A stretch of 64,000 nt of DNA from Oceanicoccus sagamiensis (GTDB taxonomy: Bacteria > Pseudomonadota > Gammaproteobacteria > Pseudomonadales > Dasaniaceae), in NCBI RefSeq assembly GCF_002117105.1, contig NZ_CP019343.1, positions 3,596,001 to 3,660,000 on the forward strand, given 5' to 3'. Shown here in pieces: positions 33,847 through 49,775 of this stretch. The notes under the pieces were generated by a model. The model was not told where the DNA came from. It made no database searches and saw only the letters and a program-made list of their open reading frames with translations. Within the stretch, counting starts at the first letter, position 1, and every line of letters begins with the position of its first letter. Position numbers and translations under genes: made by a program.

Positions 33847-34007
33847 GTGCCTGAAAGAAAGTGACAGCCGTTAGATTGATCCTGGATCTGGCGCTAAGGT
33901 GGGTCAGCCAGATCAATAAGATAAGATTTTATATTAAGTATTTACTTTATAATTGATCTATAACTATCTGTTTAATAAATATTTTATATAAAATAATGCG
34001 TATATAA

Positions 34008-34025
34008 ACCAAGCAAGCGCTTGGT
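34008..34025 (+). promoter_or_regulatory. TetR-type palindromic operator before the acyl-CoA cluster
   Basis: ACCAAGC-AAGC-GCTTGGT is an 18-base palindrome with 7-bp arms. It is followed by a -10-like TATGAT (34049-34054) and, just before the first start codon, by the perfect palindrome AACCAGCTGGTT (34068-34079). Such operators are typical of TetR repressors that sense acyl-CoA, but no regulator gene lies in the window. The remainder of 33847-34087 is AT-rich with no other feature. Confidence 0.55.
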
Positions 34026-34087
34026 ATAGAATAAATTGCTAATCCCTGTATGATAGTGAGCTCTATTAACCAGCTGGTTGTTGTTCT

Positions 34088-35620
34088 ATGTTTCAATGCC
34101 TTCATCAGTTTCTCGATTATCATGCCCGAGTGCATGGTGATTCGCCGTTTCTGGTTGAGGGTAAGGTCAGCCTAAGCTTTGCCGACTTTGAGGCCCGGGT
34201 TGACCGTGCCGTTGATCGCCTCCGGCTAATGTCCTTAAGCCGGGGTGACCGTATCGCCTTGCTGGGTAAAAACTCCATTAACTTTTTTACGATGATATTA
34301 GCCTGCAGTAAATTGGGCGTTGTGCCGGTGGCGGTCAATTATCGGCTAAGTCCCTCGGAAGCGGCCTTTATTATTGCTGATGGCACTAGCCAGTGTTTAT
34401 TGATTGATGCTGAATTTATTGATGAAGTGGCGGAGCACTGTTCAGGCTTGCCTGTTATCGGCTTGTTTGGCTCTCATCCAGCTTATCCTGATTTTGAGCA
34501 ATGGCTAGGTGACGGTGAGCAGGCAGTCTCTGACTCTCTTCCTGTTATCGCTGCCTCCGATATTCTTTCCCAAATGTATACCAGTGGCACAACCGGTATG
34601 CCCAAAGGCGTGCTGCTAAGCCATGCTAATGTGATTGCCAATGTTTACCAGACAGCCATGGCATCAGAATATACCTTTGGACTGGGTGAGCAGATGTTAT
34701 TAGTGGCCCCTATGTACCATGCGGCGGGGATTATGACGGCCTATACCGGATTGATTCAGGGCTTAACCCTGATTATTCACCGTGACTACAGCCCGGAGCG
34801 GGTGGTGGAGGCCTTATCCAGTCAGCCTATTGTGGCGGCAACGCTGGTACCCGCCATGCTGCAATTTATCCTTAATCATGTGCCCGATATACATCGTCAA
34901 TCCTTTCCATCGCTACAGCTTATTTATTACGGCGCCTCGCCCATGTCGGTGGACTTGCTTAAGCGGGCTATTGAAGTGTTTGATTGTGACTTTGCTCAGG
35001 GCTATGGCCAAACCGAAGCTAACTCCATTGTTGCTATGCTGTCGCCTTCGGATCATCGCTATGCGCTGGCATCAGCCCCGGATTTATTAAGTGCCTGTGG
35101 TCGCGCGACCTTTGATACCCGGCTGCGTTTGGTCAGTGAGGGTAAAGATGTAGAGCAGGGTGAGGCCGGAGAGATTGTGGCGAGCGGCCCGCAAGTGATG
35201 CAAGGCTATTGGAATAACCCCGAAGCGACCGCCGCAACCATTAAGGATGGCTGGTTATATACCGGTGATATCGGCAGGATGGATAAGCAAGGTTATCTCT
35301 ATATTGTGGGCCGGGTAAAAGACATGATTATTTCGGGGGGCGAAAATATCTATCCGGCGGAAATTGAAACCGTCTTGGCAAGACATCAACAGATCAATGA
35401 AGTGGCTGTGGTCGGTATCCCTGATGCCCGCTGGGGTGAAGTGCCTTTGGCTGTATTGGTGGGCAATCAATCACTCGATAGTGATGAGTTACGAGCCTTC
35501 TGTGCCGATCATTTGGCTAAATTTAAAATACCGGCTCGCTTTGAGTGGCTTGGTGCGTTGCCCAGAAACCCCAGCGGTAAAATACTTAAGCAGCAATTAC
35601 GAGAACAGTTTTCTAACTAG
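34088..35620 (+). CDS. Acyl-CoA ligase (AMP-forming)
   Basis: A 510-residue adenylating enzyme that would activate a carboxylic acid to its CoA thioester, the entry step of this cluster. Motifs in order are the P-loop MYTSGTTGMPKGV (about residues 162-174), GYGQTEA, YTGDIGRMD (ATP ribose), KDMIISGGENIYPAEIE (hinge) and the C-terminal catalytic Lys in NPSGKILK. It is nearest to medium/long-chain FadD-like ligases; the acid cannot be named. No good ribosome site precedes the ATG at 34088, but the start fits the family. Confidence 0.88.
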   Translation: MFQCLHQFLDYHARVHGDSPFLVEGKVSLSFADFEARVDRAVDRLRLMSLSRGDRIALLGKNSINFFTMILACSKLGVVPVAVNYRLSPSEAAFIIADGTSQCLLIDAEFIDEVAEHCSGLPVIGLFGSHPAYPDFEQWLGDGEQAVSDSLPVIAASDILSQMYTSGTTGMPKGVLLSHANVIANVYQTAMASEYTFGLGEQMLLVAPMYHAAGIMTAYTGLIQGLTLIIHRDYSPERVVEALSSQPIVAATLVPAMLQFILNHVPDIHRQSFPSLQLIYYGASPMSVDLLKRAIEVFDCDFAQGYGQTEANSIVAMLSPSDHRYALASAPDLLSACGRATFDTRLRLVSEGKDVEQGEAGEIVASGPQVMQGYWNNPEATAATIKDGWLYTGDIGRMDKQGYLYIVGRVKDMIISGGENIYPAEIETVLARHQQINEVAVVGIPDARWGEVPLAVLVGNQSLDSDELRAFCADHLAKFKIPARFEWLGALPRNPSGKILKQQLREQFSN

Positions 35621-35629
35621 AGAAAGGCT

Positions 35630-36463
35630 ATGTCAGATCATTCAGCAGATAACGAAGCAAAAGTCCTCTATAGCGTACAAGACCACATTGCAGTGATAAC
35701 GCTAAATCGACCCAGGCAGCGCAATGCCCAGGATTTAGATCTTATCCAGCAGCTTGACCGTTGCTGGGAAAAAGCAGCGGATGATAAAAACGTCAAAGTG
35801 ATTGTATTGAATGCTAATGGTCCGCACTTTTCTGCCGGCCATGACATTTCCAGGCAGGCCATGGAGCAGGTCCCTGATGTCGATTGGCAAGGTGAAGTCA
35901 TTGCTGATTTATACCATTACGAAAAAAAACACTTTGTCGAGTTCTGCCGTAAGTGGCGCAATATCCCCAAGCCCTCTATTGCTGTAGTGCAGGGTGCCTG
36001 TATTGCAGCGGGTCTTATGTTGATTTGGCCCTGCGATCTGATTGTTGCGGCTGATAATGCCCGGTTTAGCGACCCTGTTGTGCATATGGGGATTGGCGGC
36101 GTTGAATATCATGGCCACACCTGGGAGTTGGGTGCACGCAAAGCTAAGGAGCTGCTATTTACCAGCGATTCGCTGGATGCTTACCAGGCCGAGCAGCTAG
36201 GCATGGTTAACAAGGTCGTGCCTATAGAGGCATTGAATAACGAAGCGATGGCCATGGCTAAAAAAATAGCCCAAAAACCAGCCTTTGGTTTGGCAATGGC
36301 CAAGCGTGCGGTTAATCGTACGCTGGATATTCAGGGGCAGGCGAATGCCATTGAGAGTGTGTTTGATATTCATGAACTGGGCCATGGTAATAGCCAGGCT
36401 GCCACCGGTGAGCCCGTTATGGTTTATCTGGATGGTATGAAAAAAGCCAAGCAAGAGAGTTAA
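35630..36463 (+). CDS. Enoyl-CoA hydratase/isomerase (crotonase family), first copy
   Basis: A 277-residue crotonase fold. The oxyanion-hole segments are HFSAGHDIS (about residues 67-75) and VVQGACIAAGLMLIWPCDL (about 118-136), the substrate pocket is in ADNARFSDPVVHMGI, and NKVVP marks the C-terminal region. It probably hydrates an enoyl-CoA made from the acid activated by the preceding ligase. The second catalytic Glu position is unclear because GGVEYHGH is unusual, so a hydrolase or isomerase role is possible. AAAGG stands before the ATG. Confidence 0.85.
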   Translation: MSDHSADNEAKVLYSVQDHIAVITLNRPRQRNAQDLDLIQQLDRCWEKAADDKNVKVIVLNANGPHFSAGHDISRQAMEQVPDVDWQGEVIADLYHYEKKHFVEFCRKWRNIPKPSIAVVQGACIAAGLMLIWPCDLIVAADNARFSDPVVHMGIGGVEYHGHTWELGARKAKELLFTSDSLDAYQAEQLGMVNKVVPIEALNNEAMAMAKKIAQKPAFGLAMAKRAVNRTLDIQGQANAIESVFDIHELGHGNSQAATGEPVMVYLDGMKKAKQES

Positions 36464-36498
36464 TCGTTTTACCTTCAATCAATCATGAGAGTCTCGCA

Positions 36499-36723
36499 AT
36501 GGCAGTGATCAATATAGTCGCAGAAGTTACCGGTAAAGTATGGCAGGTCGATATCCAGCAAGGGCAGTCTGTTACAGAGGACGATACCCTGATGATTATC
36601 GAAAGTATGAAAATGGAAATTCCTGTAGACGCACCGGAAGATGGGCGGATCGTTGAAATACTGGTGGCTAAAGATGAGGCCGTTGTAGAGGGTCAGATTT
36701 TGGCCAGACTGGACATTCAGTGA
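36499..36723 (+). CDS. Stand-alone biotin carboxyl carrier protein
   Basis: A 74-residue biotinyl/lipoyl domain with the biotin attachment motif ESMKMEIPV (Lys38). It carries carboxybiotin between a biotin carboxylase and a carboxyltransferase. The biotin carboxylase of this cluster already has its own carrier domain, so this free one is an extra. Its stop codon overlaps the start of the AtuA-like gene (ATGA), suggesting coupled translation. Confidence 0.9.
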   Translation: MAVINIVAEVTGKVWQVDIQQGQSVTEDDTLMIIESMKMEIPVDAPEDGRIVEILVAKDEAVVEGQILARLDIQ

Positions 36724-38548
36724 TGAGTAAACAGATGATTCGCATTGGTGGCGCCAGTGGTTATTGGGGGATTCCTCCGTAGCCACACCGCAGTTATTAG
36801 ATGGTGGGGAGCTGGACTATATCGTTTACGACTACCTCGCCGAAGTCACTTTGTCGATTATGGCCAGAGCTCGGGCCAAAGATGCCAATATGGGTTATGC
36901 CACTGACTTTATAAGCAGTGCTTTAAAGCATAATCTACCCGCTATCGCAAAGCAGGGAGTCAAAGTGATTTCGAATGCTGGCGGTGTTAACCCCAAAGCC
37001 TGTGGTGAAGCGGCCAGAGTTTTAATTGCTGAGATGGGGCTGGATTTAACGGTTGCAGTCGTTACCGGTGATGACTTGCTGGATGCTAATGATCTGGACT
37101 TGAGTAATAGCAAAGAAATGTTTTCTGGCGAAGCTTTCCCGAAGGCTGAATCTGTCGTTAGTATCAATGCCTATCTCGGAGCTTTTCCCATTGCCCAAGC
37201 ATTGGCGGAGGGCGCGGATATTGTGATTACGGGTCGCAGTGTGGATAGTGCCGTCACTCTGGCTGCCTGTATTTATGAGTTCGGCTGGCAGCCTAACGAT
37301 TGGGATCAGCTATCAAGCGGTACACTGGCTGGCCATATTATTGAGTGTGGCACTCAGGCCACTGGCGGTAACTTTACCGATTGGCAGCAGGTCGTCGATA
37401 GTCTTGATCGGGCGGGCTACCCCATTGCGGAAGTTAAAGTGGATGGTAGTTTTGATATTGTTAAGCCAGCTAACACTGGCGGTATGGTGAGTGTCGGCAC
37501 CGTGTCTGAGCAAATGCTGTATGAAATCGGTGATCCGCAGGCCTACCTAATGCCGGATGTGGTTTGTGATTTCTCCCAAGTGCTTATTAGTCAGCTTGCG
37601 GAGGATAGAGTGAATGTGTCGGGGGCTATCGGCTATCCCGCTACAGACAGTTATAAAGTGAGTGCAACCTATGCGGATGGTTGGCGCGGCGGTTCTCTGT
37701 ATAACTTTTGCGGTATCGATGCAGATAAAAAAGCCGAGGCCTTTGCTGAGCTGGTATTAAAGCGTGTGCGTTCAGTCTTTCAAGCGCGGCAAATGGAAGA
37801 TTTTAAAGAGGTCAGCATTGAAGTGATGGGGGCTGAAACACATTACGGAGATTTCCAGCAATTGGAAAGCTCCCGTGAAGTTGTGCTGAAGTTGGCTGCG
37901 CGCCATGCCGATGCTAAAGCGATTGCTATATTGCTAAAAGAAGTGACCGGCCTGGCATTATCGGCTCCACCGGGTTTGTCGATTTTTGCCGGTGCTCGCC
38001 CAAAGCCGTCACCTGTTGTGCGTTTATTTTCTTTTTTAATCCCTAAACACAAGCTGTCTATACAGATTGATAATGGGCAAGAACTTACAGAATTTCAGCC
38101 CTTATCGATTGAACATTCCGCTAAGAAAAAAATTCAAATTAAGCCTGTCCCAGCGGTGGATTGTCAGGACCTTAAAGGTATGGCCGTTGTGCCGCTGGTT
38201 ACACTGGCTTGGGCTCGCAGTGGTGATAAGGGTGATAAAGCCAATATTGGTGTAATTGCCCGCCAGCCAGAGTTCCTGCCTTATATTATTCAGTCTTTAA
38301 CAGTAGATAGTGTTGCCAAGCGCTTTGCGCATTTTATGGAAAAAGGTGGTAGTGAAGAGCCTGTCGAGTGTTTTTTACTGCCGGGTTCCAATGCCATCAA
38401 CTTTCTAATCCATCATGTGTTGGGCGGTGGCGGTATGGCAAGCCTGCGCAGCGATGCTCAGGGAAAAGCCTATGCACAAATTTTACTGGATCACCCCATA
38501 GTTATTCCTGAGCAGCTACTAGACCCATCAGCGGAGACACTTAAATGA
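36723..38548 (+). pseudogene. AtuA family protein (DUF1446), frame broken near the start
   Basis: The normal AtuA start MSKQMIRIGGASGYWG is encoded from ATG 36723 and then hits a stop at 36777. Re-reading one G at 36770 continues as DSSVATPQLL and runs intact to 38548, giving about 608 residues. The G-run at 36766-36770 has five G where six are expected. AtuA is required for growth on citronellol/geraniol in Pseudomonas, but its biochemical role is not settled. The N-terminal domain (about 1-450) and a C-terminal AtuA-type domain (from VPLVTLAWARSGDKGDKANIG, in pieces) are both present. A TTG at 36764 could give an almost full-length protein. Confidence 0.85.
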
Positions 38549-40167
38549 GTGCGTTTGTTTCAAGCTTAACGACCGATAGCGAGAGCTTTGCCGAGAACCG
38601 GCAGGAGATGTTGTCGCTGATTGATGATTATCACGATATCAAACAGCGTGCCGTTGAGTTGTCGGCTAAACGTAAACCGCGTTTTGATGAGCGTGGACAG
38701 CTGCTACCCAGAGAGCGTTTATTGCGTTTGCTGGACCCGGGTATGCCGTTTTTAGAAATGTATGGTTTGGCCAATTTCTTAGTGGATACCCCGGACCGGG
38801 AAAAATCCGTTGCCGGTGCCAGTAACCTGAGCGGTATTGGTTTTATCAGTGGCATACGTTGTTTTGTTATGGTGGACGATAGCGGTATTAATGCGGGAGC
38901 AGCCACGCCAAAATCCGGTGAGAAAATCCAGGCCTGCCTTGATGTCGCATTGCGCCACAAACTACCTTTTGTACATTTGGTTGAAAGTGCTGGGGCTAAC
39001 TTAATGGAATACCGTGTAGAAGGGTGGGCTCATGCTGGCGGGATGTTTTATCGCCGGGCTAAACTTAGCGCGGCGGGCATTCCAACCATTACTGTATTGC
39101 ACGGGCCTGCCACTGCTGGTGGCGCTTATATGCCCGGACTTAGCGATTATGTGATCAGTGTAAGGGGTAGGGGGCGCGCTTCATTGGGCGGTGCTGCTTT
39201 GGTGCAGGCTGCCACCGGTGAAATGTCCAGTGATGAAGAGCTGGCCGGTACCGAAATGCATGCCACAGTGTCCGGTCTGGTGGAATATACCGCAGAAGAC
39301 GATGCCCATGGCTTATTACTGGCTCGTAACCTTATCGAACGTATCGATTGGAATAAATCCTGCGCCAAACCGGAAAAGTCTTTATTTAAAGCTCCAGTGT
39401 ATTCCAGTGATGACATTGCTGGTCTGGTACCCGTGGATTATCGCAAGCCCTATGATGTCCGCGAGTTAATTTGCCGTTTGGTAGATGGCTCTGATTTTGA
39501 TGAATTTAAACCCCGCTATGGAGTCACCACTGTCTGCACCCATGCCAGTATTTTTGGCAATGCCTGTGGCATTATCGGCAATAATGGCCCCATCGATCCT
39601 GACGGGGCCACCAAGGCCGCTCAGTTTATGCAGCTTTGCGACCAGTCCAACATACCGCTGATCTTTCTTGGCAATATCACCGGCTTTATGGTGGGTAAAG
39701 AGTATGAGCGCAACGGCATGATAAAGCATGGCTCAAAAATGATTCAGGCCGTATCAACCGTCAGTGTACCTAAAATCACCTTATATATTGGCGCCAGTTT
39801 CGGTGCTGGCAACTACGGTATGTGCGGTATTGGTTATGAGCCTGATTTTCTATTTACCTGGCCCAATGCGGTTACCGGTGTTATGGGTGGTGAGCAAGCT
39901 GCCTCTACCATGGATTTTGTGGCCAGAGCCGGTGCTGCTCGAAAAGGTATCGAGGTAGATGAAGCGCTAATGGAAAAACAGCAGCAATCGATTATTCAAT
40001 ATTTTGATGATCAGTCCAGCGCCTTTTACACCTCAGGCCTAATGTTAGATCAGGGCATGATTGACCCAAGAGATAGCCGAAAAGTATTGGGCTTTGCCTT
40101 ACAAACCTGTTGGGAGTCACGGCACCGTGAGCTAAACCCCAATAGCTTTGGTGTAGCCAGATTGTAA
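38545..40167 (+). CDS. Acyl-CoA carboxylase carboxyltransferase subunit (AtuC/LiuB-like)
   Basis: A 540-residue biotin-dependent carboxyltransferase that moves CO2 from carboxybiotin to an acyl-CoA. The two crotonase-like halves are seen at HLVESAGANLMEYRV, GPATAGGAYMPGLSDY, and FLGNITGFMVGKEYERNGMIKHG, GASFGAGNYGMCG (in pieces). The wording is that of 3-methylcrotonyl- or geranyl-CoA carboxylases rather than acetyl-CoA carboxylase. It overlaps the AtuA-like gene by 4 bases, as expected of an atu-type operon. The acyl substrate is not certain. Confidence 0.9.
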   Translation: MSAFVSSLTTDSESFAENRQEMLSLIDDYHDIKQRAVELSAKRKPRFDERGQLLPRERLLRLLDPGMPFLEMYGLANFLVDTPDREKSVAGASNLSGIGFISGIRCFVMVDDSGINAGAATPKSGEKIQACLDVALRHKLPFVHLVESAGANLMEYRVEGWAHAGGMFYRRAKLSAAGIPTITVLHGPATAGGAYMPGLSDYVISVRGRGRASLGGAALVQAATGEMSSDEELAGTEMHATVSGLVEYTAEDDAHGLLLARNLIERIDWNKSCAKPEKSLFKAPVYSSDDIAGLVPVDYRKPYDVRELICRLVDGSDFDEFKPRYGVTTVCTHASIFGNACGIIGNNGPIDPDGATKAAQFMQLCDQSNIPLIFLGNITGFMVGKEYERNGMIKHGSKMIQAVSTVSVPKITLYIGASFGAGNYGMCGIGYEPDFLFTWPNAVTGVMGGEQAASTMDFVARAGAARKGIEVDEALMEKQQQSIIQYFDDQSSAFYTSGLMLDQGMIDPRDSRKVLGFALQTCWESRHRELNPNSFGVARL

Positions 40168-40196
40168 TTGATTATCTACCTGACAAGAGAAGCATA

Positions 40197-41009
40197 GTGA
40201 AAATACTACCCGATACAGACAAGCTGTTGTTAGAGCAAAGCGACAACTGGCTAACCATTTGGTTTAACCGTCCTGAAAGCCGCAATGCCTTATCCGAAGG
40301 GCTTACCGATGATCTCTGCGCGGTATTAAATGCCGTGCGCGATGATCAGGGCTGCCGGGGTATTACCCTGCGTGGCAAAGGTGGAGTGTTTTGTGCCGGT
40401 GGTGATTTAAAAAACTTTAAAGCGGGATTTCAGGGCGGTGAGCAATCACAGGCTGATATAGAAGCGGCTAGCCGTGCAGCAGGTGAGATGTTTGACCTGA
40501 TCAATGAAATGCCACAAGTCGTAGTGATTTTGGTGGAAGGTGCCGCTATGGCCGGTGGCCTTGGTATGGTGTGTATCGCCGATATTGTTGCTGTCACCCG
40601 TGATGCAAAATTTGCCATGACGGAAACCACATTGGGTATTCCTCCCGCGCAGATAGCACCGTTTGTGGTGCAGCGTTTGGGTTTAAGTAGTGCCAGGCGA
40701 TTAATGTTAACGGCCTCTCGGTTTAATGGTGAAGAAGCAGGGCGCTTGGGCTTGGCTGATTTTGTGGTCGATGATGCATCAGGCTTGGATCAAGTCGAGG
40801 CGGATATTAAGCAACAAGTTAAACGCTGCGCTCCCGGTGCCAATGCGGTTACCAAAGAAGTGGTGCTGGCCACGCGTCATTTAAACCGTGAAGAGATGGT
40901 GGACTTTGCTGCCAAAGGTTTTGCCGCTTGTATGCTTTCCGATGAAGGGCGTGAAGGTGTCGCCTCGTTTTTTGAAAAACGCAAACCCTATTGGTCGGTA
41001 AAACACTAA
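40197..41009 (+). CDS. Enoyl-CoA hydratase (crotonase family), second copy, AtuE-like
   Basis: A 270-residue crotonase. Oxyanion-hole segments are VFCAGGDLKNFKA (about residues 65-77) and VEGAAMAGGLGMVCIADI (in pieces, about 115-132), and the catalytic Glu is likely in FAMTETTLGIPP. Position between carboxyltransferase and biotin carboxylase matches atuE, the isohexenylglutaconyl-CoA hydratase, or liuC, the 3-methylglutaconyl-CoA hydratase. It would hydrate the carboxylated enoyl-CoA. The start is GTG, with AAGAGAAG before it. Confidence 0.87.
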   Translation: MKILPDTDKLLLEQSDNWLTIWFNRPESRNALSEGLTDDLCAVLNAVRDDQGCRGITLRGKGGVFCAGGDLKNFKAGFQGGEQSQADIEAASRAAGEMFDLINEMPQVVVILVEGAAMAGGLGMVCIADIVAVTRDAKFAMTETTLGIPPAQIAPFVVQRLGLSSARRLMLTASRFNGEEAGRLGLADFVVDDASGLDQVEADIKQQVKRCAPGANAVTKEVVLATRHLNREEMVDFAAKGFAACMLSDEGREGVASFFEKRKPYWSVKH

Positions 41010-41024
41010 GACTTGGATAAAATT

Positions 41025-43013
41025 ATGAGACGCTTTAATAGCATATTGGTCGCCAATCGTGGCGAAATAGCCGTCAGGGTAATATCGACCGCGAAGCAGC
41101 TTGGTTATCGTACCGTAGCGGTTTACTCAGAAGCAGATGCCGACGCCATCCATGTAAAAATGGCGGACGATGCCATTGCCATTGGTCCTTCGCCAGCCAA
41201 TGAAAGTTATTTGGTGATCGATAATATTTTAGCAGCAGCCAAGGCGGCCGGTGCTGAAGCGATTCACCCCGGCTATGGCTTTTTGTCAGAGAATGCTGAG
41301 TTTGCCAAAGCTTGTGAGCAGGCAGATTTGGTTTTTATTGGTCCCAGTGCTGAATCCATTGCATTGATGGGTAATAAGGCTGAAGCCAAGCGCCACATGA
41401 TTAAAGCGCAGGTTCCCTGTGTGCCGGGTTATGAAGAAAAGGATCAAACGGACGAGGTGTTGATGGCTGCGGCTGAGAATATTGGCTATCCCATTATGGC
41501 AAAAGCGGCTGCCGGTGGTGGTGGCCGTGGGATGAGTCTGGTACATAAAGCCGAAGATTTAGTCGAAGCGTTACGCTCGGCACGCTCAGTGGCGTTAAAT
41601 AGTTTTGGCTCCGACGAGATGATTTTGGAAAAAGCCATTATCAATCCCCGCCATGTTGAAATTCAGATATTCGCCGATACCCAAGGCAATGTGATTCATT
41701 TAGGTGAGCGTGATTGCTCGGTACAACGTCGCCACCAGAAAGTTGTTGAAGAAGCACCGTGCCCGGTAATGAGCGACAAATTACGTGAATCCATGGGAGC
41801 GGCGGCGGTAGAGGCAGCGAGGGCGATTAATTATCGCGGTGCAGGTACCGTCGAATTTTTACTGGATGATCAGGGTCATTTTTATTTTCTGGAAATGAAT
41901 ACCCGCTTGCAGGTTGAACACCCGGTCACGGAGCTGATTACCGGCCAGGATTTGGTAGCGATGCAAATTCAGGTAGCGCAGGGTCAGGCCCTGTCGCTAT
42001 CGCAGCAGGATATTCAATTCAATGGCCATGCTATGGAAGTGCGCCTGTATGCAGAAGATCCGGCCAAGGGCTTTTTACCCCGTACCGGCCAGATCGCTCT
42101 CTGGCAGGCAGCTGTGGGTGAAGGGGTGCGTATTGATAGCGGCATCGATAGTGGTCAGGCAATATCCCCTTACTATGATCCCATGTTGGCCAAGGTGATT
42201 GCCTGGGGGCCAGATCGTGAAACGGCCAGACATCGTTTAATGGCCGCATTAAAGAATACCCTGCTGTTCGGTACCACCAGTAATAAGCGTTTTTTGATTG
42301 ATATACTGGAACGAGAAACCTTTGCTAAAGGGCTGGCCACCACGGCCTTTATTGATCAGGAATTTTCCAAGGCTGATTTAAAAAACTCATCTGTCAGTAC
42401 TAACACCGCCGCTATAGCTGCGGTGATTCAGTATGCTCTGGAGCAGCAGCAGGCAATGCAGGCTAGCCTGAATGTGGCCGATGATTTATTAAATTGGTCA
42501 AGTACCGGGCATATGGCTAGCCGCTATGTTTATCAGTTTGCCAAGCAGTCCTTTGATCTATTGGTAAGTCCTACAGCCACTAATTGCTATCAGGTTGCGC
42601 TTAATGATCAGGCGCTAGTCTTAGAGTTACTTAATCTCGGAGAGAACACTGCCAGGCTGCGGATTAATGGCGTGGGTCAAACGGTTTATTTTCTAATGCC
42701 GGAGCCGGGTGTGTTATTACTCTCAGTTGAAGGGGCGAATATTGAATGTCGCAATGAGTTGGCCTTCTCTGCCAGTGCGGAAGCAGTTGCTGGTGACGGT
42801 CAATTACTGGCCCCTATGCACGGGGTTATGCAGGAGTTGCTGGTTAGCGTTGGCGATGCCGTTAAACAGGGCCAGCGTGTTGCCGTAGTAGAAGCCATGA
42901 AAATGCAGCATGATATAGTGGCAGATATCGATGGTACGATAGAGGCAGTGGCCGTGGCGGAAGGCAGTCAGGTTGCTGCTAACGATATATTAATAGCGAT
43001 TGCCGGCTGCTAA
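41025..43013 (+). CDS. Acyl-CoA carboxylase biotin carboxylase/carrier subunit (AtuF/LiuD-like)
   Basis: A 662-residue two-activity subunit. The biotin carboxylase part (about residues 1-450) has ILVANRGEIAVRVI, the ATP-grasp loop KAAAGGGGRGM, HLGERDCSVQRRHQK and FLEMNTRLQVEHPVTE. The C-terminal carrier domain has the biotin site EAMKMQH with Lys626. It charges biotin with bicarbonate for the neighbouring carboxyltransferases. I prefer ATG 41025 over the TTG at 41013 because the family starts at about RRFNSILVANRGE. Confidence 0.93.
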   Translation: MRRFNSILVANRGEIAVRVISTAKQLGYRTVAVYSEADADAIHVKMADDAIAIGPSPANESYLVIDNILAAAKAAGAEAIHPGYGFLSENAEFAKACEQADLVFIGPSAESIALMGNKAEAKRHMIKAQVPCVPGYEEKDQTDEVLMAAAENIGYPIMAKAAAGGGGRGMSLVHKAEDLVEALRSARSVALNSFGSDEMILEKAIINPRHVEIQIFADTQGNVIHLGERDCSVQRRHQKVVEEAPCPVMSDKLRESMGAAAVEAARAINYRGAGTVEFLLDDQGHFYFLEMNTRLQVEHPVTELITGQDLVAMQIQVAQGQALSLSQQDIQFNGHAMEVRLYAEDPAKGFLPRTGQIALWQAAVGEGVRIDSGIDSGQAISPYYDPMLAKVIAWGPDRETARHRLMAALKNTLLFGTTSNKRFLIDILERETFAKGLATTAFIDQEFSKADLKNSSVSTNTAAIAAVIQYALEQQQAMQASLNVADDLLNWSSTGHMASRYVYQFAKQSFDLLVSPTATNCYQVALNDQALVLELLNLGENTARLRINGVGQTVYFLMPEPGVLLLSVEGANIECRNELAFSASAEAVAGDGQLLAPMHGVMQELLVSVGDAVKQGQRVAVVEAMKMQHDIVADIDGTIEAVAVAEGSQVAANDILIAIAGC

Positions 43014-43037
43014 CAACAATAATAATCAGGATTGGCT

Positions 43038-44636
43038 ATGGTTTATGACCCGCGCATCCCAGCAAAAGAACAGTGTGTACTGGCCTACCAGTTAGAGCGG
43101 TGGGCTAGCGAGCGCCCTGAGCAAACGGCGGTGGTGTTCTATGGCGGTGAAAGTTGGTCTTGGCAAACTCTGTTAGCCATGACCCAGCGCACAGCCTGCG
43201 CCCTGCAATCTTTAGGCGTCAGCAAAGGTGATCATGTACTCAGTTGGCAGCCTAATAATAAGCAGGCGTTGCTGACCTGGTTTGGTTTAAATTATCTGGG
43301 CGCTGTCTATGTTCCGATTAATACCGCTTACAAAGGTAGTTTGTTGCAGCATGTGGTTCAACTGTCAGATGCACGGCTAATGATTTGTCATGCTGATTTA
43401 GCACCGAGACTTAATGCGATTGAAACGGGTGGATTACAGGATGTGATTGTCACTCACGATAAGGTTGATTTAACCGCGCTTAATACTTTGCCGGAATCTG
43501 CCCTAATCGCTCACCAACCGCTCTCACAGCCCCCTGAGCTTATTGAACCCTGGGATACGCAATATATTATTTTTACTTCGGGCACCACCGGGCCCTCTAA
43601 AGCGGTTTTATCCTCGTATTTGCAAGGCTATTCAATGGGTCCCGAGGCTCACCCTTATGTGGATAGTGATGATCGCTCTCTGATTAATATGCCGCTGTTT
43701 CATGCTGGCGGTACCATCTATGTCATTATGACTCTGGCCAATGGTGGCTCCTGTTTTATTGATAGCCATTTTAAAACCGATGAATTCTGGTCGACCATTA
43801 ATGATTATCAAATTACCTCGACCTGTTTAGTAGCCGCTATGATTCCTTTTTTATTAAAACTACCTCCTAGCGATAAGGACAAAAACCATAGCTTGAAAAA
43901 AGCCCTCTGCGTACCCTGGAATGACGATGGTCGTGCGGTTGGTTTGCGTTACGGTATTGATATGCGTACTTGTTTTAATATGACGGAAATATCAGGTCCT
44001 TTAGTATCTGATTCTTTTCCTGAAAAAAACGGTACCTGCGGTAAAGTTCGGGCAGGTGTTGAAGCGCGTGTCGTTGATGAAAATGATTGTGAAGTCGCGC
44101 CGGGTGTCACAGGGGAATTGGTATTGCGCACCGACCGCCCCTGGTCGATGAATCATGGCTATTATAAAAATCCGCCAGCGACTGCTGAGGCCTGGCGCAA
44201 TGGCTGGTTTCATACCGGTGATGGCTTTAAATACGATAAAGAGGGCTACTTTTACTTTGTTGATAGAATCAAGGATGCTATCCGTCGGCGCGGTGAAAAT
44301 ATTTCTTCCTTTGAAGTCGAGAATGAAGTCACCGCTTTTCCTCAGGTAAGGGAAGCTGCTGCGATAGCAGTGCCCAGTGAGTTAAGTGAAGATGATGTTA
44401 TGATTGTGGTGTCAGCGCTAGCGGGTAATACGGTAGAGCCGCTGGCATTATTTGAGTTTCTGCAGCAGCGAGTGGCCTATTTTATGTTGCCGAGATTTAT
44501 TCGTATTGTTGATGAGTTGCCAAAAACCCCAACCCAAAAAATAAAAAAACATCTGCTGAAAGAAGCGGGTGTGACCGACGATACCTGGGACCGTGAAGCA
44601 GCAGGTATTGTGGTTAAACGAGATCAGTTGTCCTAG
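43038..44636 (+). CDS. Acyl-CoA ligase (AMP-forming), second copy, CaiC-like
   Basis: A 532-residue adenylating enzyme. Motifs are IIFTSGTTGPSKAVLSS (about residues 175-191), FNMTEISGP, FHTGDGFKYDKEGY, the hinge RIKDAIRRRGENISSFEVE and the C-terminal Lys region TPTQKIKKHLL. It is closer to crotonobetaine/carnitine-CoA ligases and similar enzymes than to the first ligase of the cluster, so it probably takes a different acid. ATG 43038 is preferred, with AGG 8 bases before it, over the TTG 6 bases upstream. Confidence 0.87.
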   Translation: MVYDPRIPAKEQCVLAYQLERWASERPEQTAVVFYGGESWSWQTLLAMTQRTACALQSLGVSKGDHVLSWQPNNKQALLTWFGLNYLGAVYVPINTAYKGSLLQHVVQLSDARLMICHADLAPRLNAIETGGLQDVIVTHDKVDLTALNTLPESALIAHQPLSQPPELIEPWDTQYIIFTSGTTGPSKAVLSSYLQGYSMGPEAHPYVDSDDRSLINMPLFHAGGTIYVIMTLANGGSCFIDSHFKTDEFWSTINDYQITSTCLVAAMIPFLLKLPPSDKDKNHSLKKALCVPWNDDGRAVGLRYGIDMRTCFNMTEISGPLVSDSFPEKNGTCGKVRAGVEARVVDENDCEVAPGVTGELVLRTDRPWSMNHGYYKNPPATAEAWRNGWFHTGDGFKYDKEGYFYFVDRIKDAIRRRGENISSFEVENEVTAFPQVREAAAIAVPSELSEDDVMIVVSALAGNTVEPLALFEFLQQRVAYFMLPRFIRIVDELPKTPTQKIKKHLLKEAGVTDDTWDREAAGIVVKRDQLS

Positions 44637-44659
44637 TGGGCCGTAGAGAGGAATAGTGT

Positions 44660-46231
44660 ATGTCTGATGAAATAACATCACGGGACTTACTACAACAGTT
44701 AGAGGAAGCGCGTGCCTCAATAACAGACCAGCAAAGACCGGATGCGGTGGCTAAGCGCCGCGAGCAGGGTATGGGGACCGCAAGAGAGCGTGTGCAGCAA
44801 TTGTTGGACGCCGATAGCTTTCGGGAAGTCGGTGGTTTGGTCGGCCCTGATCGCAGCAATGCCCTAAGTCGAGATTTAGAGGCTCCTGCTGATGGGGCGG
44901 TGACGGGTAGCGGCAAGATTGGTGGGCGCGAGGTTTCAGTCGTGTCTCAGGATTTCACTGTACTAGGTGGCAGTATTGGTACCCATGCCGACCATAAGAT
45001 GGGGCGCCTGATTAACCGTGCTGCGGATCGGGGTCAACCTTTGGTAATGATGTTAGAGGGTGGCGGTCACCGCATTCAAGACGGAATGAATGCCGCGCAT
45101 TTTGCTGCGGCTTCACCGGTCTTTCATTTAATCAGCAGACTTTCTGGCTGGGTGCCGAATGTCACCGCCATCATGGGGCAGGGCTTTGCTGGGCCGACGG
45201 CCTATGCATCACTGTCTGATTTTGTCGTTTTGGTGCGGGAAAAATCGACCATGGGTATTGCCGGCCCTGCGTTAGTTAAAGCGGGTACAGGGCAGGAAAT
45301 TTCAAAAGAAGCATTGGGCGGTGCCAGGCGCCAGGCCGACCAGCAAGGTATTGCTGATTTGGCTGTGGATACTGAAGAAGAATGCCTACAGGCCATTCAG
45401 CAATTTCTATCCTATTTGCCCAGCAATGCGGGTGAGCCTTTGCCAATCATTCCCTGTGACGATCCGATCGATCGTCGTGATGATAAGCTATTGGATTTGG
45501 TGACTGCCAATAGCCGTAAAGTTTACGATATGCGCAAAGTGATTAAAGTGATTGCAGATAAAGGCAGTGTCTTTGAGATAAAGCCGGGCTTTGCCAAAAA
45601 TATGCTGACCTGCTTGGCGCGGATGAATGGTCGGCCGGTCGGTTTTTTTGCTAACCAGCCGATGCAAAAAGGCGGCATACTCGATGCGGCCGCCTGTGAA
45701 AAGGCTGCACATTTTATTGCGCTATGTGATGCATTTGGGGTTCCTTTAGTGTCCTTGATAGATATTCCCGGTATAGCCATTGGTCCCGCCGCTGAAGATA
45801 CCGGGTTGGGGCGTCGCAGTGGCCGGCTGTTTTATGAAATGGGCATTGCCACCGTACCTTTGATCTCGGTGGTACTGCGCAAAGGTTATGGTGGAGGCTA
45901 TTATGCTATGGGAGGTGGTCGAGGCTTTGATGCTGATGCGGCCTTTGCCTGGCCCACGGCAGAGATTTGTGCCATGTCTATCGAAGGGGCGGTGGATGTT
46001 GCCTATAAGAAAAAATACCAGTCAGCCGATGACCCGGACACTGAACGGCAGCACATGATTGACGATATCAAAGGTCAAACCGGCGCATTAGACGCGGCCC
46101 ATGATTTTGGTATTGATGACGTGATTGATCCAAGAGAAACCCGTCAGCGCATTATTGAAGTGCTGGCATCCTGTCTACCCAGAAGACCAGATCGCAGCCC
46201 GCCCAGAGTGCGTTCTATTTCACCTGTCTAG
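44660..46231 (+). CDS. Second acyl-CoA carboxyltransferase subunit
   Basis: A 523-residue carboxyltransferase clearly different from the one at 38545. It has the family start RREQGMGTARERVQQLLD and ADGAVTGSGKIGGREVSVVSQDFTVLGGS (in pieces), MLEGGGHRIQDG and GKGYGGGYYAMGGGRGF-type glycine loops in the C-terminal half. It looks like a propionyl-CoA carboxylase-beta-like protein of unsettled specificity. Only one biotin carboxylase is encoded nearby, so it must share it or use the free carrier. AGAGGA precedes the ATG. Confidence 0.85.
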   Translation: MSDEITSRDLLQQLEEARASITDQQRPDAVAKRREQGMGTARERVQQLLDADSFREVGGLVGPDRSNALSRDLEAPADGAVTGSGKIGGREVSVVSQDFTVLGGSIGTHADHKMGRLINRAADRGQPLVMMLEGGGHRIQDGMNAAHFAAASPVFHLISRLSGWVPNVTAIMGQGFAGPTAYASLSDFVVLVREKSTMGIAGPALVKAGTGQEISKEALGGARRQADQQGIADLAVDTEEECLQAIQQFLSYLPSNAGEPLPIIPCDDPIDRRDDKLLDLVTANSRKVYDMRKVIKVIADKGSVFEIKPGFAKNMLTCLARMNGRPVGFFANQPMQKGGILDAAACEKAAHFIALCDAFGVPLVSLIDIPGIAIGPAAEDTGLGRRSGRLFYEMGIATVPLISVVLRKGYGGGYYAMGGGRGFDADAAFAWPTAEICAMSIEGAVDVAYKKKYQSADDPDTERQHMIDDIKGQTGALDAAHDFGIDDVIDPRETRQRIIEVLASCLPRRPDRSPPRVRSISPV

Positions 46232-46267
46232 TCATCCGATTATCCGACTTAATCGTAGGAAACCTTT

Positions 46268-47079
46268 ATGTCATCGCGTCTGTTAATAGAAAAACAAGAG
46301 ACAGTCTGGATTGCCCGATTTAATAATCCGCCACACAGTTATATGGATCATCTAACGGGCGAAGCCCTGACGCAATTATTAGATGAGGTGGATGGCGATA
46401 GCGTGGTGCGGGCGGTAATTTTTACCGGTAGTGAAGAGGGTGTATTTATTCGTCATTATGATGTGGCTGTGTTGTTAGAGCGCAGTCAGGGGATGGCGGA
46501 GCGCGGTTTACGTTTTTCGCTGGACCGCTTAATTCCCGAATCGCAATTACATCAATGTTTAGCACGAATGGAGTCAATGCCAATCGCTTTTATTGCTGCA
46601 ATTAATGGCACTGCTATGGGTGGGGGTTTGAAATTACTCTGGCCTGTGATTTTCGTTTGGTGCAACAGGGTGATTATGATTTGGGTCTGCCAGAAATTAA
46701 TCTCGGTTTACTGGGCGGTGCCGGGGGTACTCAGCGTCTGCCACGGTTAATAGGCCAATCAAAAGCTTTGGAGATGGAGTTATTAGGGCAAACGATTTCA
46801 CCAGCACAAGCCGTGCAATGGGGTATTGCCATGGAATGTGTAGAGGGTGATGTTGTCGCCAGATCCATAGAGATTGCCAATAAGCTGGCCACTAAAGACC
46901 CCCGAGCCTCGGCACATATTAAACAGTTAATCAGAGGTTCTGCCGATTGGGAACTTGAAGAAGGTCTTGCTAAGGAGCGAACCTTATTTTGTGATTTAAT
47001 GGTTGCCCCTGATAGCTTGCAAGCGATGAAAGATTTTGTAGAAAACGATGGCGATATTCGCGACGAAGATTGCCGCTAA
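46268..47079 (+). pseudogene. Enoyl-CoA hydratase/isomerase, third copy, frame broken
   Basis: The first part runs from 46268 through MPIAFIAAINGTAMGGG, then the frame turns to nonsense ending at 46750. Adding one T to the run at 46627-46629 restores FEITLACDFRLVQQGDYDLGLPEINLG (in pieces) and leads to 47079, a complete crotonase of about 270 residues. The break lies within the conserved GGGFELALACD motif. Oxyanion segments (FIRHYD and NGTAMGGG) are present in the first part. The second part has GGAGGTQRLPRLIG, as in FadB-type hydratases. Confidence 0.85.
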
Positions 47080-47100
47080 TCATTATTTTAGGATTGAACC

Positions 47101-48345
47101 ATGTCTAGCCCCCAATATGATGTTGTTATTTTTGGTGCCACCAGCTTTGTTGGTCAAATTATTGTGCGTTACTTTTGTGAACAGTTTTCCACCGCTGATG
47201 CGGCCGAGCAAGTCAGTTGGGCCATTGCCGGTCGATCAGAGGCCAAGCTCAATGAAGTAAAAGCCTTGATGGCAGATAAGGTTGATGATATTCCCACCAT
47301 TGTTGCCAATGCTGATGACCTTGAAGCGATGCGCGCTATGTGTGAGCAAACACTGGTGGTGATGTCCACGGTTGGGCCCTATGCTTTATATGGCGATACG
47401 CTGATTCAAGCTTGTGTAGAAACCGGCACCGACTACTGTGATCTGGCGGGTGAAATCCAGTGGATTAAACGTATGCAGGACAAATATTCAGAAGCTGCTT
47501 TAAACAGCGGTGCGCGTATTGTTCATAGCTGCGGCTTTGATTCGATTCCTTCTGATATGGGTGTGTACTACTTGCAACAGCAAGCCAAAGCAAAACTGGG
47601 GCAGGTCTGCTCGGAGGTGGCTCTGCGGATTAAAGCTGCATCAGGAGGTTTTTCCGGTGGTACTTTTGCCAGCATGGTTAATGCCAATGATGAAATGGCA
47701 GCCGATCCGGAGTTACAGGCGCTGTTGGAAGATAGTTATGCGATTTGCCCTGAGGATTATCCCAAGCAGGCAAAGCAGCACAGTATTCTCAGTCACCACT
47801 ATGACGAAAATTTTGCCAGCTGGTCTGCGCCATTTATGATGGCACCGATTAACGAGCCAGTGGTGCTGCGCTCCAATGCCTTAAGCGACTATAGCTATGG
47901 TAAAGACTTTCACTATAATGAAGCCATCCTGACTGCCCCCGGCACTGGCGGTAAAATTGCTGCGGTGATGGTGGACAAAGTGATGAAAATATTTGTAGCC
48001 GCCACTGCTATGCCGTTGTTTAAACCGTTAATTATGAAAATAATGCCTGCGCCTGGTGAGGGCCCCAGCCCTGAAGCGCAGGCCAAGGGTTTTTATGATA
48101 TTCGCTTTTTGGGTAAAACCAACGATGGGCAGCGGATACAAACTAAACTAACCGGTGATCGTGACCCAGGTTACGGTTCAACGGCTAAAATTATTGCTCA
48201 ATCTGCGGTCTGTCTGGCCAAGGATATAAGTCAGCAAGAAAAGGGCGGTGGTTTTTGGACCACGGCCACTGTTTTTGACCAGCGTTTAATTGACCGCTTA
48301 TGTCAATATGCCGGTTTGACCTTTGAAGTGATTGATGACGACTAA
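47101..48345 (+). CDS. Saccharopine dehydrogenase-like NAD(P)-binding protein (trans-acting enoyl reductase type)
   Basis: A 414-residue protein with an N-terminal Rossmann fold (VIFGATSFVGQIIVRYF, about residues 8-24), followed by WAIAGRSEAKL and STVGPYALYGDTLIQAC. HSCGFDSIPSDMGVYY is typical of the group that includes mycobacterial trans-acting enoyl reductases and lipid-linked SDH-like proteins. True saccharopine dehydrogenase is unlikely in this setting. It may reduce an unsaturated acyl intermediate with NADPH. AGGA precedes the ATG. Confidence 0.8.
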   Translation: MSSPQYDVVIFGATSFVGQIIVRYFCEQFSTADAAEQVSWAIAGRSEAKLNEVKALMADKVDDIPTIVANADDLEAMRAMCEQTLVVMSTVGPYALYGDTLIQACVETGTDYCDLAGEIQWIKRMQDKYSEAALNSGARIVHSCGFDSIPSDMGVYYLQQQAKAKLGQVCSEVALRIKAASGGFSGGTFASMVNANDEMAADPELQALLEDSYAICPEDYPKQAKQHSILSHHYDENFASWSAPFMMAPINEPVVLRSNALSDYSYGKDFHYNEAILTAPGTGGKIAAVMVDKVMKIFVAATAMPLFKPLIMKIMPAPGEGPSPEAQAKGFYDIRFLGKTNDGQRIQTKLTGDRDPGYGSTAKIIAQSAVCLAKDISQQEKGGGFWTTATVFDQRLIDRLCQYAGLTFEVIDDD

Positions 48346-48385
48346 AATAGACTGTTATGCTAGCGCCGCGCTGTTGCTATCAAAG

Positions 48386-48452
48386 CAAGTACTATAAATA
48401 CAAGTACTATTAAAACAAGATAAGCCAAAAGCAAAACAAGATAAGTCAAAAG
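48386..48452 (+). repeat. Two short tandem duplications upstream of the luciferase-like gene
   Basis: CAAGTACTAT occurs at 48386-48395 and 48401-48410. A 20-base AAAACAAGATAAG(C/T)CAAAAG unit occurs at 48412-48431 and 48433-48452, with one mismatch and a 21-base period. They fill most of the leader before the ATG at 48463. Confidence 0.8.
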
Positions 48453-48462
48453 AAGTTTTATT

Positions 48463-49442
48463 ATGTCTGTTACTTTGTCCGTACTCGATCAATCGATGTC
48501 ACGTTCTGCCAATCATGCCGCGCAAGCCTTGCAGGAAACCCTGCAAATGGCCCAGTTCTGTGAGCAATTGGGTTATCAACGTTTCTGGGTGTCGGAGCAC
48601 CATGCCTTCCGTTCGGTGGCCGGTAGTGCGCCGGAAGTTTTGTTGGCGGCTCTGGGTGCGGCCACTCGTACTATCCGCTTAGGGTCTGGTGGCATTATGC
48701 TGCCACATTACAGTGCCTATAAAGTCGCTGAAGTATTTTCTCTGCTGGCTAATCTATATCCTGGCCGCATTGATCTGGGAGTAGGGCGAGCCCCGGTGCT
48801 GATATGTCCACGGCTAAAGCTCTGGCGACGGATGGTCAGCCCAAATTTGCCCGTTTTCCGCAATTGGTTGAAAGTCTGAGTGAGTATCTATGGCAACCAG
48901 TAACTCAGCCGGTCGTTAGCCCAAAACCACCACCGGGTATTCCATTATGGATGTTGGGTTCCAGTGCCGATAGCGCCTTGCTGGCTGCTCAGCGCGGTCT
49001 GCCTTATAACCTGGCGGCGTTTATCAATCCTCAGGCTGACCCAGCTTTGATTCAGTATTATAAAGAGCGCTTTCAGCCCAGCGAGTTGCAGCAGCAGCCC
49101 TATGCGATTCTTACCATGAGTGTGTTTTGTGCCGATACCGAAGAACAGGCGGCTAAGCTGGCCCATACCCATGATATTAATTTCTTCCGCTTTGTTACAG
49201 GGCAGGCAGGCGAGGTTTCACTAACCCCTGCGGAGGCTGCGGAATTTCCGATGACGCCACAGTTGCAGAGTTTTATTCAGGACCGTTCCAGATTAAGGGC
49301 GACGGGGACAGTAGAGCAGGTAAAAGAAAAAATTACCCGACAGGCGGAAGTATTTTCTGCCGATGAAATTATGGCGGTAACCAATATGCATTATTTTGAA
49401 GATCGCAAACGCTCGTTCGAGTTACTCAAACAAGCTTTCTAA
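48463..49442 (+). pseudogene. Luciferase-like (LLM) flavin-dependent monooxygenase, frame broken
   Basis: The first part (from 48463) is a normal LLM start, with WVSEHHAFRSVAGSAPEVLL and GSGGIMLPHYSAYKVAEVF (in pieces), up to GVGRAP. The frame then goes wrong. Re-reading one G at 48795 gives GADMSTAKALA and a normal C-terminal half to 49442, about 326 residues in all. The G-run (48795-48796) has two G where three are expected. The family uses reduced flavin to oxidise organic substrates. Its place at the end of the acyl-CoA cluster suggests a related hydroxylation or Baeyer-Villiger step, by inference. Confidence 0.85.
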
Positions 49443-49451
49443 TCTAACGAT

Positions 49452-49775
49452 TTAGTAAAGGTCGTCTAACACACCGTTAACAATGTCGGTTTCTATCATG
49501 CTGACCGGGCCATTCCAGTCCTCAGGGTAGATAGTATCGTCGGGGTTAAGGTAATCTTCACTGCTGAGTTCATAGGCATTGCGCCAATCCTCAGGTTCTT
49601 CCACCTCTTCCAGTAGCATTTCATTCCAGTTCTCAAGGTCGTATTCCGTTACAGCGCCATCGATAAGTTGGGTTTCTATCGTGCGGGTGTTTTCGTCCAC
49701 AGCCACGACTTCAAATATCAGCCCTTGCTGGATTTCCCTATACCAGCTGCCAACTTGAGGTGTAGTACTTTTCAT
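49452..49775 (-). CDS. Small acidic protein (DUF6763-like)
   Basis: A 107-residue very acidic protein beginning MKSTTPQVGSWYREIQQGLI, with FEVVAVDENTRTIETQLIDG and a C-terminal stretch rich in Glu, Asp and Trp (EPEDW, PEDWNGP). It resembles small conserved gammaproteobacterial proteins I believe are called DUF6763; the function is unknown. It is convergent with the luciferase-like gene, with a 9-base gap and no visible terminator between them. Confidence 0.7.
   Translation of the reverse strand: MKSTTPQVGSWYREIQQGLIFEVVAVDENTRTIETQLIDGAVTEYDLENWNEMLLEEVEEPEDWRNAYELSSEDYLNPDDTIYPEDWNGPVSMIETDIVNGVLDDLY

Follow-up and report, generated by a model that had tools for sequence, protein, structure and literature searches.

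Twelve genes of Oceanicoccus sagamiensis as the probable carboxylation half of a split atu-type regulon with an added carboxylase module

The locus studied here raises the question of which pathway is served by twelve genes that lie together on one strand in Oceanicoccus sagamiensis. The window is a 64,000-nucleotide stretch of contig NZ_CP019343.1 (genome size 4.47 Mb), and coordinates without a prefix refer to it. A preliminary description of the genes had presented them as an acyl-CoA carboxylation cluster that is neither the known atu nor the known liu operon. Our comparison of sequences instead suggests that the block is very probably the carboxylation half of an AtuR-controlled regulon for acyclic terpenes (beta-methyl-branched isoprenoid acids), split over two loci, with an acyl-CoA carboxylase module added to it. 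The core chemistry of the atu pathway is known already; the new element would be an atu-type regulon spread over two loci with a second carboxylase module, and no description of this arrangement was found in open-access papers. The features that bear most directly on this reading are the following.

33861-49455, no strand: the entire block that is present or absent as one piece
34008-34025, plus strand: AtuR-type operator ACCAAGCAAGCGCTTGGT, 62 bp upstream of ligase 1, containing the published 13-bp half-site
34088-35620, plus strand: acyl-CoA ligase 1, 510 amino acids (PF00501; NF004837 481 bits, cut-off 476)
36764-38548, plus strand: AtuA-type lyase with a C-terminal AtuA_ferredoxin domain, 594 amino acids, TTG start as listed (PF07287 462 bits, PF23544 93 bits)
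38545-40167, plus strand: carboxyltransferase 1 (CT1), 540 amino acids, geranyl-CoA carboxylase beta (AtuC) type by match to PDB sequences and by tree, with Ala at the selectivity position
40197-41009, plus strand: crotonase 2, AtuE-like putative hydratase (LGIPPAQIAPFV), 270 amino acids, by alignment with AtuE rows; under the cut-off of the Pseudomonas hydratase model
41013-43013, plus strand: biotin carboxylase of AtuF type with its own C-terminal biotin domain, 666 amino acids (family profiles and locus comparison)

The fourth to seventh genes are, as judged from their sequences, an AtuA/AtuC/AtuE/AtuF-type set. AtuA is full length, carries both family domains above their cut-offs and is the sole copy in the genome. 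Among PDB entries, CT1 matched geranyl-CoA carboxylase beta (5ikl) with 584 bits, followed by 9tps with 446 bits and the methylcrotonyl-CoA carboxylase beta of Pseudomonas aeruginosa with 443 bits. In a midpoint-rooted tree of 40 carboxyltransferase rows, CT1 fell in a clade of 26 rows (support 100/99), referred to here as the window clade, on the same side as the AtuC rows of atu-type loci and away from the LiuB-type row of its own genome. Published mutants have shown that substrate size is set by Phe191 in methylcrotonyl-CoA carboxylase and Gly162 in geranyl-CoA carboxylase (PMC4673880). At this selectivity position Ala is found in CT1, Gly in all nine atu-type loci and Phe in the genome's own LiuB type, while the 25 other rows of the window clade have Gly in 22 cases and Phe in three (L057, L066 and L067). 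Crotonase 2 shares a PAQIAPFV stretch with all five atu-type AtuE rows aligned. According to unpublished results mentioned in PMC12016498, a tertiary-alcohol acyl-CoA is cleaved by the AtuA-like proteins ThnQ and ThnS, and this supports a lyase role of AtuA. The chemistry that had been foreseen for the cluster, in which a beta-methyl branch is carboxylated, hydrated and cleaved with loss of acetate, holds at the level of family for these four genes.

This core recurs in other genomes. An AtuA match at E 0.001 was found in 164 of the 390 genomes in the order sample (own genome included), and the sample has 28 other places where AtuA is 53-61% identical over most of the protein. Forty loci were compared, namely 27 in which AtuA reaches 52% identity or more and 13 with weaker matches; G071 (on a 5-kb contig) and G344 (partial, 57%) were left out. 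The order atuA, CT1, crotonase, biotin carboxylase, with gaps of at most 159 bp, was present in 19 of the 27 loci. The remaining loci comprise five without the crotonase, one cut off by a contig end, one that is rearranged (L046) and one with atuA alone (L068).

The region ahead of the genes points to the same pathway. The published AtuR half-site is the 13-bp sequence AGCAAGCGCTTGG (PMC9973270), and an exact copy stands at 34012-34024, ahead of ligase 1. Its 12-bp core has exactly two copies in the genome when only exact copies are counted, one in the window and one at 1813409, and the reversed control has none. The second operator site, about 1.8 Mb away, lies between atuD-like and atuR-like genes (stretch L131). 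The two sites share 20 identical bases, of which 18 also occur, once or more, in every one of eight atu-type loci. When one mismatch was allowed in the fetched stretches, the 13-mer was exact in eight of the nine atu-type loci and had one mismatch in the ninth. The acyl-CoA dehydrogenase at L131, of AtuD type, is 70% identical to the AtuD within atu-type locus L071, and the two frame pieces of the AtuR-type TetR gene are 66% and 61% identical to the TetR protein encoded beside atuA in L074. Beyond the TetR gene lie an SDR gene, a ligase gene, an acetoacetate-decarboxylase-like gene and another SDR gene.

This genome resembles the atuRABCDEFGH system of P. aeruginosa and P. citronellolis. The block opens with an AtuR half-site and has AtuA, AtuC, AtuE and AtuF types in the same relative order, and AtuD, AtuR, SDR and ligase types occur elsewhere in the genome with the same operator. 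Given this core, this half-site and this second locus, the statement that the cluster is not the known atu system was not borne out. That citronellyl-CoA dehydrogenase and SDR genes are missing is correct for the block, but an AtuD type and two SDRs are present at the second operator site. The atu genes of Thauera linaloolentis 47Lol have likewise been reported in an order other than that of the Pseudomonas operon, with an AtuR-like repressor gene far off (PMC4847356), in a paper that sets out the published route as well. Next to the Thauera genes lie those for linalool isomerase and geraniol oxidation, and the passages of that report on this gene set mention no second carboxylase module.

The block itself is a single unit. 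Exactly this block is absent from two congeners, G005 (L121) and G004 (L123), where window bases 33860 and 49456 are 9 bp apart and the flanking NfuA and MscS-like genes are 96% and 86% identical. Because the flanks are joined in this way in two congeners, the grouping of the genes exceeds chance, and the proposal that the twelve genes form a unit was upheld by this empty site. In the other congeners the flanks have no bearing on the presence of the block: in G001, G002, G006 and G007 they share a contig at a distance of more than 100 kb, in G003 and G008 they lie on different contigs, and NfuA was not found in G009. The block may have been gained in this genome or lost in the congeners. A mobile element was considered and rejected, there being no tRNA, no notable terminal repeats and no integrase among the families found. 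Intergenic spacing, taken from open reading frame ends, is between -4 and 40 bp through the SDH-like gene and is 117 bp before the LLM gene (both listed below). A scan for promoters and terminators gave no more sites than shuffled sequence, and family profile searches found no regulator or transporter families among the twelve genes.

The proposed regulon would work as follows. An AtuR-type repressor would bind the operator upstream of ligase 1 and so control the block, which may be read as a single transcript. A ligase, either that of the block or the one beside the AtuD-type gene, would make the CoA ester of a citronellate-like acid, and the AtuD-type enzyme encoded 1.8 Mb off would desaturate it. 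CT1 and the biotin carboxylase would then carboxylate the beta-methyl group of a geranyl-type enoyl-CoA, crotonase 2 would hydrate the carboxylated product, and AtuA would take off acetate to give a beta-ketoacyl-CoA for beta-oxidation ending in the liu pathway. In the published scheme the central route starts from cis-geranyl-CoA, which arises by oxidation or isomerisation (PMC8637051). Ligase 2, CT2 and the free biotin carrier, possibly joined by crotonase 3 (all described below), would form a second, propionyl-CoA-carboxylase-like module. This arrangement is of interest since an operator sequence can show that two distant loci make up one catabolic regulon, so that pathway genes that seem to be missing are elsewhere rather than absent. 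It also brings a clade of gene sets of geranyl-CoA-carboxylase-like type, most of them without an AtuR operator, into the vicinity of the atu pathway.

Several observations weigh against this reading. First, CT1 lies outside the nine-row clade of atu-type AtuC proteins, its own 26-row clade being separate; the LiuB type of the genome is distinct from either clade. Secondly, crotonase 2 scored 143 bits on the NCBIfam model for gamma-carboxygeranoyl-CoA hydratase, whose cut-off is 426 bits, and the LiuC-type protein of the same genome outscored it with 289 bits; because this LiuC type scores higher, the model is not decisive. Third, the window has one exact half-site, whereas published atu promoters have two, about 40 bp apart. 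Among 35 whole genomes (26 with window-clade AtuA and nine of the same family) the 17-bp operator was found in just one, G272. The 13-mer had no exact copy in the 27 window-clade stretches as fetched (the operator of G272 lies just outside stretch L046), and copies with one mismatch occurred in three of them (L063, L064 and L066), over 6 kb away from where atuA starts. Fourth, in a survey that scored up to four candidates per genome, only 10 of the 26 genomes with window-clade AtuA had a strong AtuD match (1e-125). Since only these 10 have the match, the window clade is not dependent on AtuD and, with the operator in one genome of 35, operates mostly outside AtuR and AtuD. In the same survey no strong AtuD match was found in the block-less congeners G004 and G005, and G006 has an AtuD match without AtuA. 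Fifth, the AtuR-type gene at L131:10941-11587 (about 1.813 Mb) lies in two frames, which may reflect either a defective repressor or an assembly error at this place. Lastly, the published atu pathway offers no role for seven of the twelve genes. In Pseudomonas atuABCDEFGH is one operon, whereas here two loci are 1.8 Mb apart, no AtuB or AtuD type stands between the core genes, and eight genes are found beyond the four core genes, including a second carboxyltransferase, a second ligase and a free biotin carrier.

These observations also bear on an alternative that we consider very improbable, namely that the block encodes an undescribed pathway for some other branched acid, unrelated to atu and similar to it at the level of families only. 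The separate position of the window-clade CT1 and the eight genes beyond the core would agree with such a pathway, as would the gene neighbours of the clade elsewhere, which include SCP2, FMN-reductase, dehydrogenase and other regulator genes and mostly come without an AtuR operator or AtuD. Against this alternative, the only two exact copies of the AtuR half-site in the genome stand ahead of the first gene of the block and at the atuR/atuD-type locus. G272 (L143:5246-13748) also counts against it, as there the operator heads an operon of AtuC, AtuD, AtuE, AtuF and SDR types that ends in a window-clade AtuA (58% identical). The operon of G272 is a hybrid in which atu-type genes are combined with window-clade AtuA. 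A carboxylation pathway for the C24 branch of sterols was rejected, as the block holds no sterol-specific family and none of the paper listings searched linked AtuA-type genes to a sterol route.

The block and the liu operon with its 3-methylcrotonyl-CoA carboxylase have in common the logic of carboxylation, hydration and cleavage and the enzyme superfamilies, but the block has no isovaleryl-CoA dehydrogenase or HMG-CoA lyase, and CT1 has Ala where methylcrotonyl-CoA carboxylase has Phe. A separate liu-type operon is present elsewhere in the genome (L091), with a MerR-family gene, an acyl-CoA dehydrogenase in the place of isovaleryl-CoA dehydrogenase, LiuB, LiuC and LiuD types, and an HMG-CoA lyase that scored 458 bits against an NCBIfam cut-off of 246. 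The block as a copy of liu was rejected given this operon and the selectivity residue. The two enzymes that had been noted as missing are indeed not in the block, but a lyase and an acyl-CoA dehydrogenase are present in this operon.

The question that remains is what the other genes contribute. They are the following.

35630-36463, plus strand: crotonase 1, PRK08290 subfamily, 277 amino acids (NF006140 380 bits, cut-off 280)
36499-36723, plus strand: free biotin carrier protein, 74 amino acids, motif ESMKME (PF00364 and translation)
43032-44636, plus strand: acyl-CoA ligase 2, 534 amino acids (family profiles; relatives at most one gene away from CT2-like genes in L089 and L096 and beside a carboxyltransferase protein of 1100 amino acids in L125)
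44660-46231, plus strand: carboxyltransferase 2 (CT2), 523 amino acids, propionyl/acetyl-CoA-carboxylase-beta type, with AGPTAYASL where CT1 has AGGAYMPGL
46268-46750, plus strand: crotonase 3, piece 1 (family profiles)
46657-47079, plus strand: crotonase 3, piece 2 (family profiles)
47101-48345, plus strand: saccharopine-dehydrogenase-like (SDH-like) NADP-binding protein, 414 amino acids (PF03435)
48463-48879, plus strand: MsnO8-family LLM protein, piece 1 (TIGR03558 profile positions 1-107)
48804-49442, plus strand: MsnO8-family LLM protein, piece 2 (TIGR03558 profile positions 112-325)

The open reading frame list and the family profile searches gave all twelve genes, at 34088-49442, on the plus strand, in the order and with the families first described. 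However, only 10 of the 12 are intact open frames; crotonase 3 and the LLM gene are each broken into two overlapping frames, whose pieces cover complementary parts of the same family profiles. The preliminary description had proposed that the cluster be compared with other genomes and with characterised pathways. The four core genes do align with a known pathway, but the other eight do not. In none of the 40 AtuA loci was a counterpart of the free biotin carrier, CT2, the SDH-like gene or the LLM gene found near the core. The ligase in the place of AtuH in L070, L072, L073, L076 and L077 is a weak match to ligase 2 (24-26%), scattered crotonase matches near the core were 26-32% identical, and in L080, a congener with another kind of AtuA set, ligase 1 is matched by two pieces (28 and 42% identical) some 2 kb away from atuA.

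CT2 matched the beta subunits of propionyl- and acetyl-CoA carboxylases over its whole length (best 7w5u with 392 bits, then 1vrg with 367 bits), but its AGPTAYASL replaces the AGG-type motif. The Gly-Gly pair at the AGG motif forms an oxyanion hole. CT1 and the Streptomyces relative of CT2 have AGG here, and the other CT2-like rows aligned have AGP, AGH, AAM and AGN. Relatives of CT2 are rare: with up to three candidates scored per genome, E values below 1e-120 were obtained in one genome each among the 389 others of the order sample and the 397 of the phylum sample. Among plasmids the best relatives are about 49% identical (Rhodococcus), and a scan of genome contigs gave one match, in Streptomyces (40%). 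CT2 as the housekeeping propionyl-CoA carboxylase was rejected. The set at L090 in the same genome fits this role better, with another carboxyltransferase accompanied by methylmalonyl-CoA epimerase, mutase and MeaB, each above its NCBIfam cut-off, and no methylmalonyl-CoA mutase or epimerase gene was found in the block. A further CT2-like carboxyltransferase (33%) lies at L092:9414-10991 of this genome, beside a gene for an old-yellow-enzyme-type flavin oxidoreductase.

Some other bacteria have ligase 2 and CT2 types close together, which makes a second acyl-CoA carboxylase in this operon probable; the free biotin carrier would belong to it by inference. In G560 (L089) the two types are twice no more than one gene apart, in one case with a binding-protein gene between them and in the other as TetR, free biotin carrier, ligase and CT2. 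The same closeness is seen twice on plasmid pRoPD630_1 of Rhodococcus opacus, where one CT2 type is fused to a biotin carboxylase and the other is parted from the ligase by one, and in Acuticoccus (L125) the ligase 2 type precedes the protein of 1100 amino acids. AtuA was not seen in these stretches. This pattern makes it quite possible, though short of probable, that two pathways share one operon, genes 1-7 being the atu half and ligase 2, CT2, crotonase 3 and the free biotin carrier acting on a different acid. On the other hand, the halves are not parted by a second operator or by any gap above 40 bp before the LLM gene. Also, the pairing is not general, as seven other relatives of ligase 2 have no carboxyltransferase in their stretches, and the stretches around two CT2 relatives, in G234 (L086) and in R. 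qingshengii (L095), contain nothing that matches ligase 2. Both ligase 2/CT2 modules of G560 lie beside genes for branched-chain-amino-acid-type ABC transporters and TetR regulators. Within the preferred reading of an AtuR-controlled regulon with an added module, a more specific form is doubtful: one operon would carry two isoprenoid-acid carboxylases, a gamma-carboxylating enzyme of geranyl-CoA type and an alpha-carboxylating CT2 with its own ligase, the free biotin carrier and the shared biotin carboxylase. If true, the atu pathway would be extended to substrates beyond the reach of the Pseudomonas pathway. A rare pair of carboxyltransferase and ligase is now named and open to assay.

The split genes suggest another alternative, which we regard as unlikely: that the block is a decaying island in a regulon losing its function. 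Since the AtuR-type gene, crotonase 3 and the LLM gene are each in two frames, part of the regulon may indeed be decaying, which counts against the proposed regulon. No other clear split gene was found in the open reading frame list of the window, and the block is absent in two congeners. However, ten genes of the block read through as open frames (AtuA, CT1, crotonase 2 and the biotin carboxylase of the core, crotonase 1, ligases 1 and 2, CT2, the SDH-like gene and the free biotin carrier), and single-base assembly errors would give the same picture at the split genes. With its reading frame broken, a working LLM enzyme, the flavin monooxygenase that had been proposed as an addition to the pathway, is doubtful, and a working crotonase 3 is doubtful likewise. 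The SDH-like gene as a pathway-specific enoyl reductase was considered and dropped. A 52%-identical relative in Burkholderia pyrrocinia, the only one whose neighbourhood was read, has no carboxylation genes nearby.

Crotonase 1 is without the Glu carried by the other crotonase rows aligned. Neither AtuA nor a carboxyltransferase is found in the annotated stretches around two of its relatives (55-56%, in Sphingobium and Streptomyces). At L131:6125-6937, about 3 kb from the atuD-type gene, lies the gene of a crotonase paralog with 80% identity. Crotonase 1, with its missing glutamate and this close paralog, could, as a further part of the doubtful specific form above, be the isomerase of trans- to cis-geranyl-CoA. 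Between the L131 crotonase and the atuD-type gene lie ArsR-family, LMWPc, SBF-transporter and FMN-reductase genes, which resemble an arsenic-resistance set.

Other surroundings of the core were noted during the comparison. In the small genomes of family f42 (L048, L050, L051, L054, L055, L059, L060 and L064) the core is found with SCP2, MFS, GST, FMN-oxidoreductase and acyl-CoA-dehydrogenase genes and an AraC regulator. These neighbours were named in L054 and L060 only and elsewhere assigned by clustering, and some of the loci hold only part of the set. Two of the acyl-CoA-dehydrogenase genes are pimeloyl-CoA-dehydrogenase-like. Lastly, a conjugative plasmid of Sphingobium sp. WTD-1 (L094) carries ligase, carboxyltransferase, hydratase, biotin carboxylase and AtuA in that order, followed by a methylmalonyl-CoA-mutase-family set, and is another AtuA module with added chemistry.

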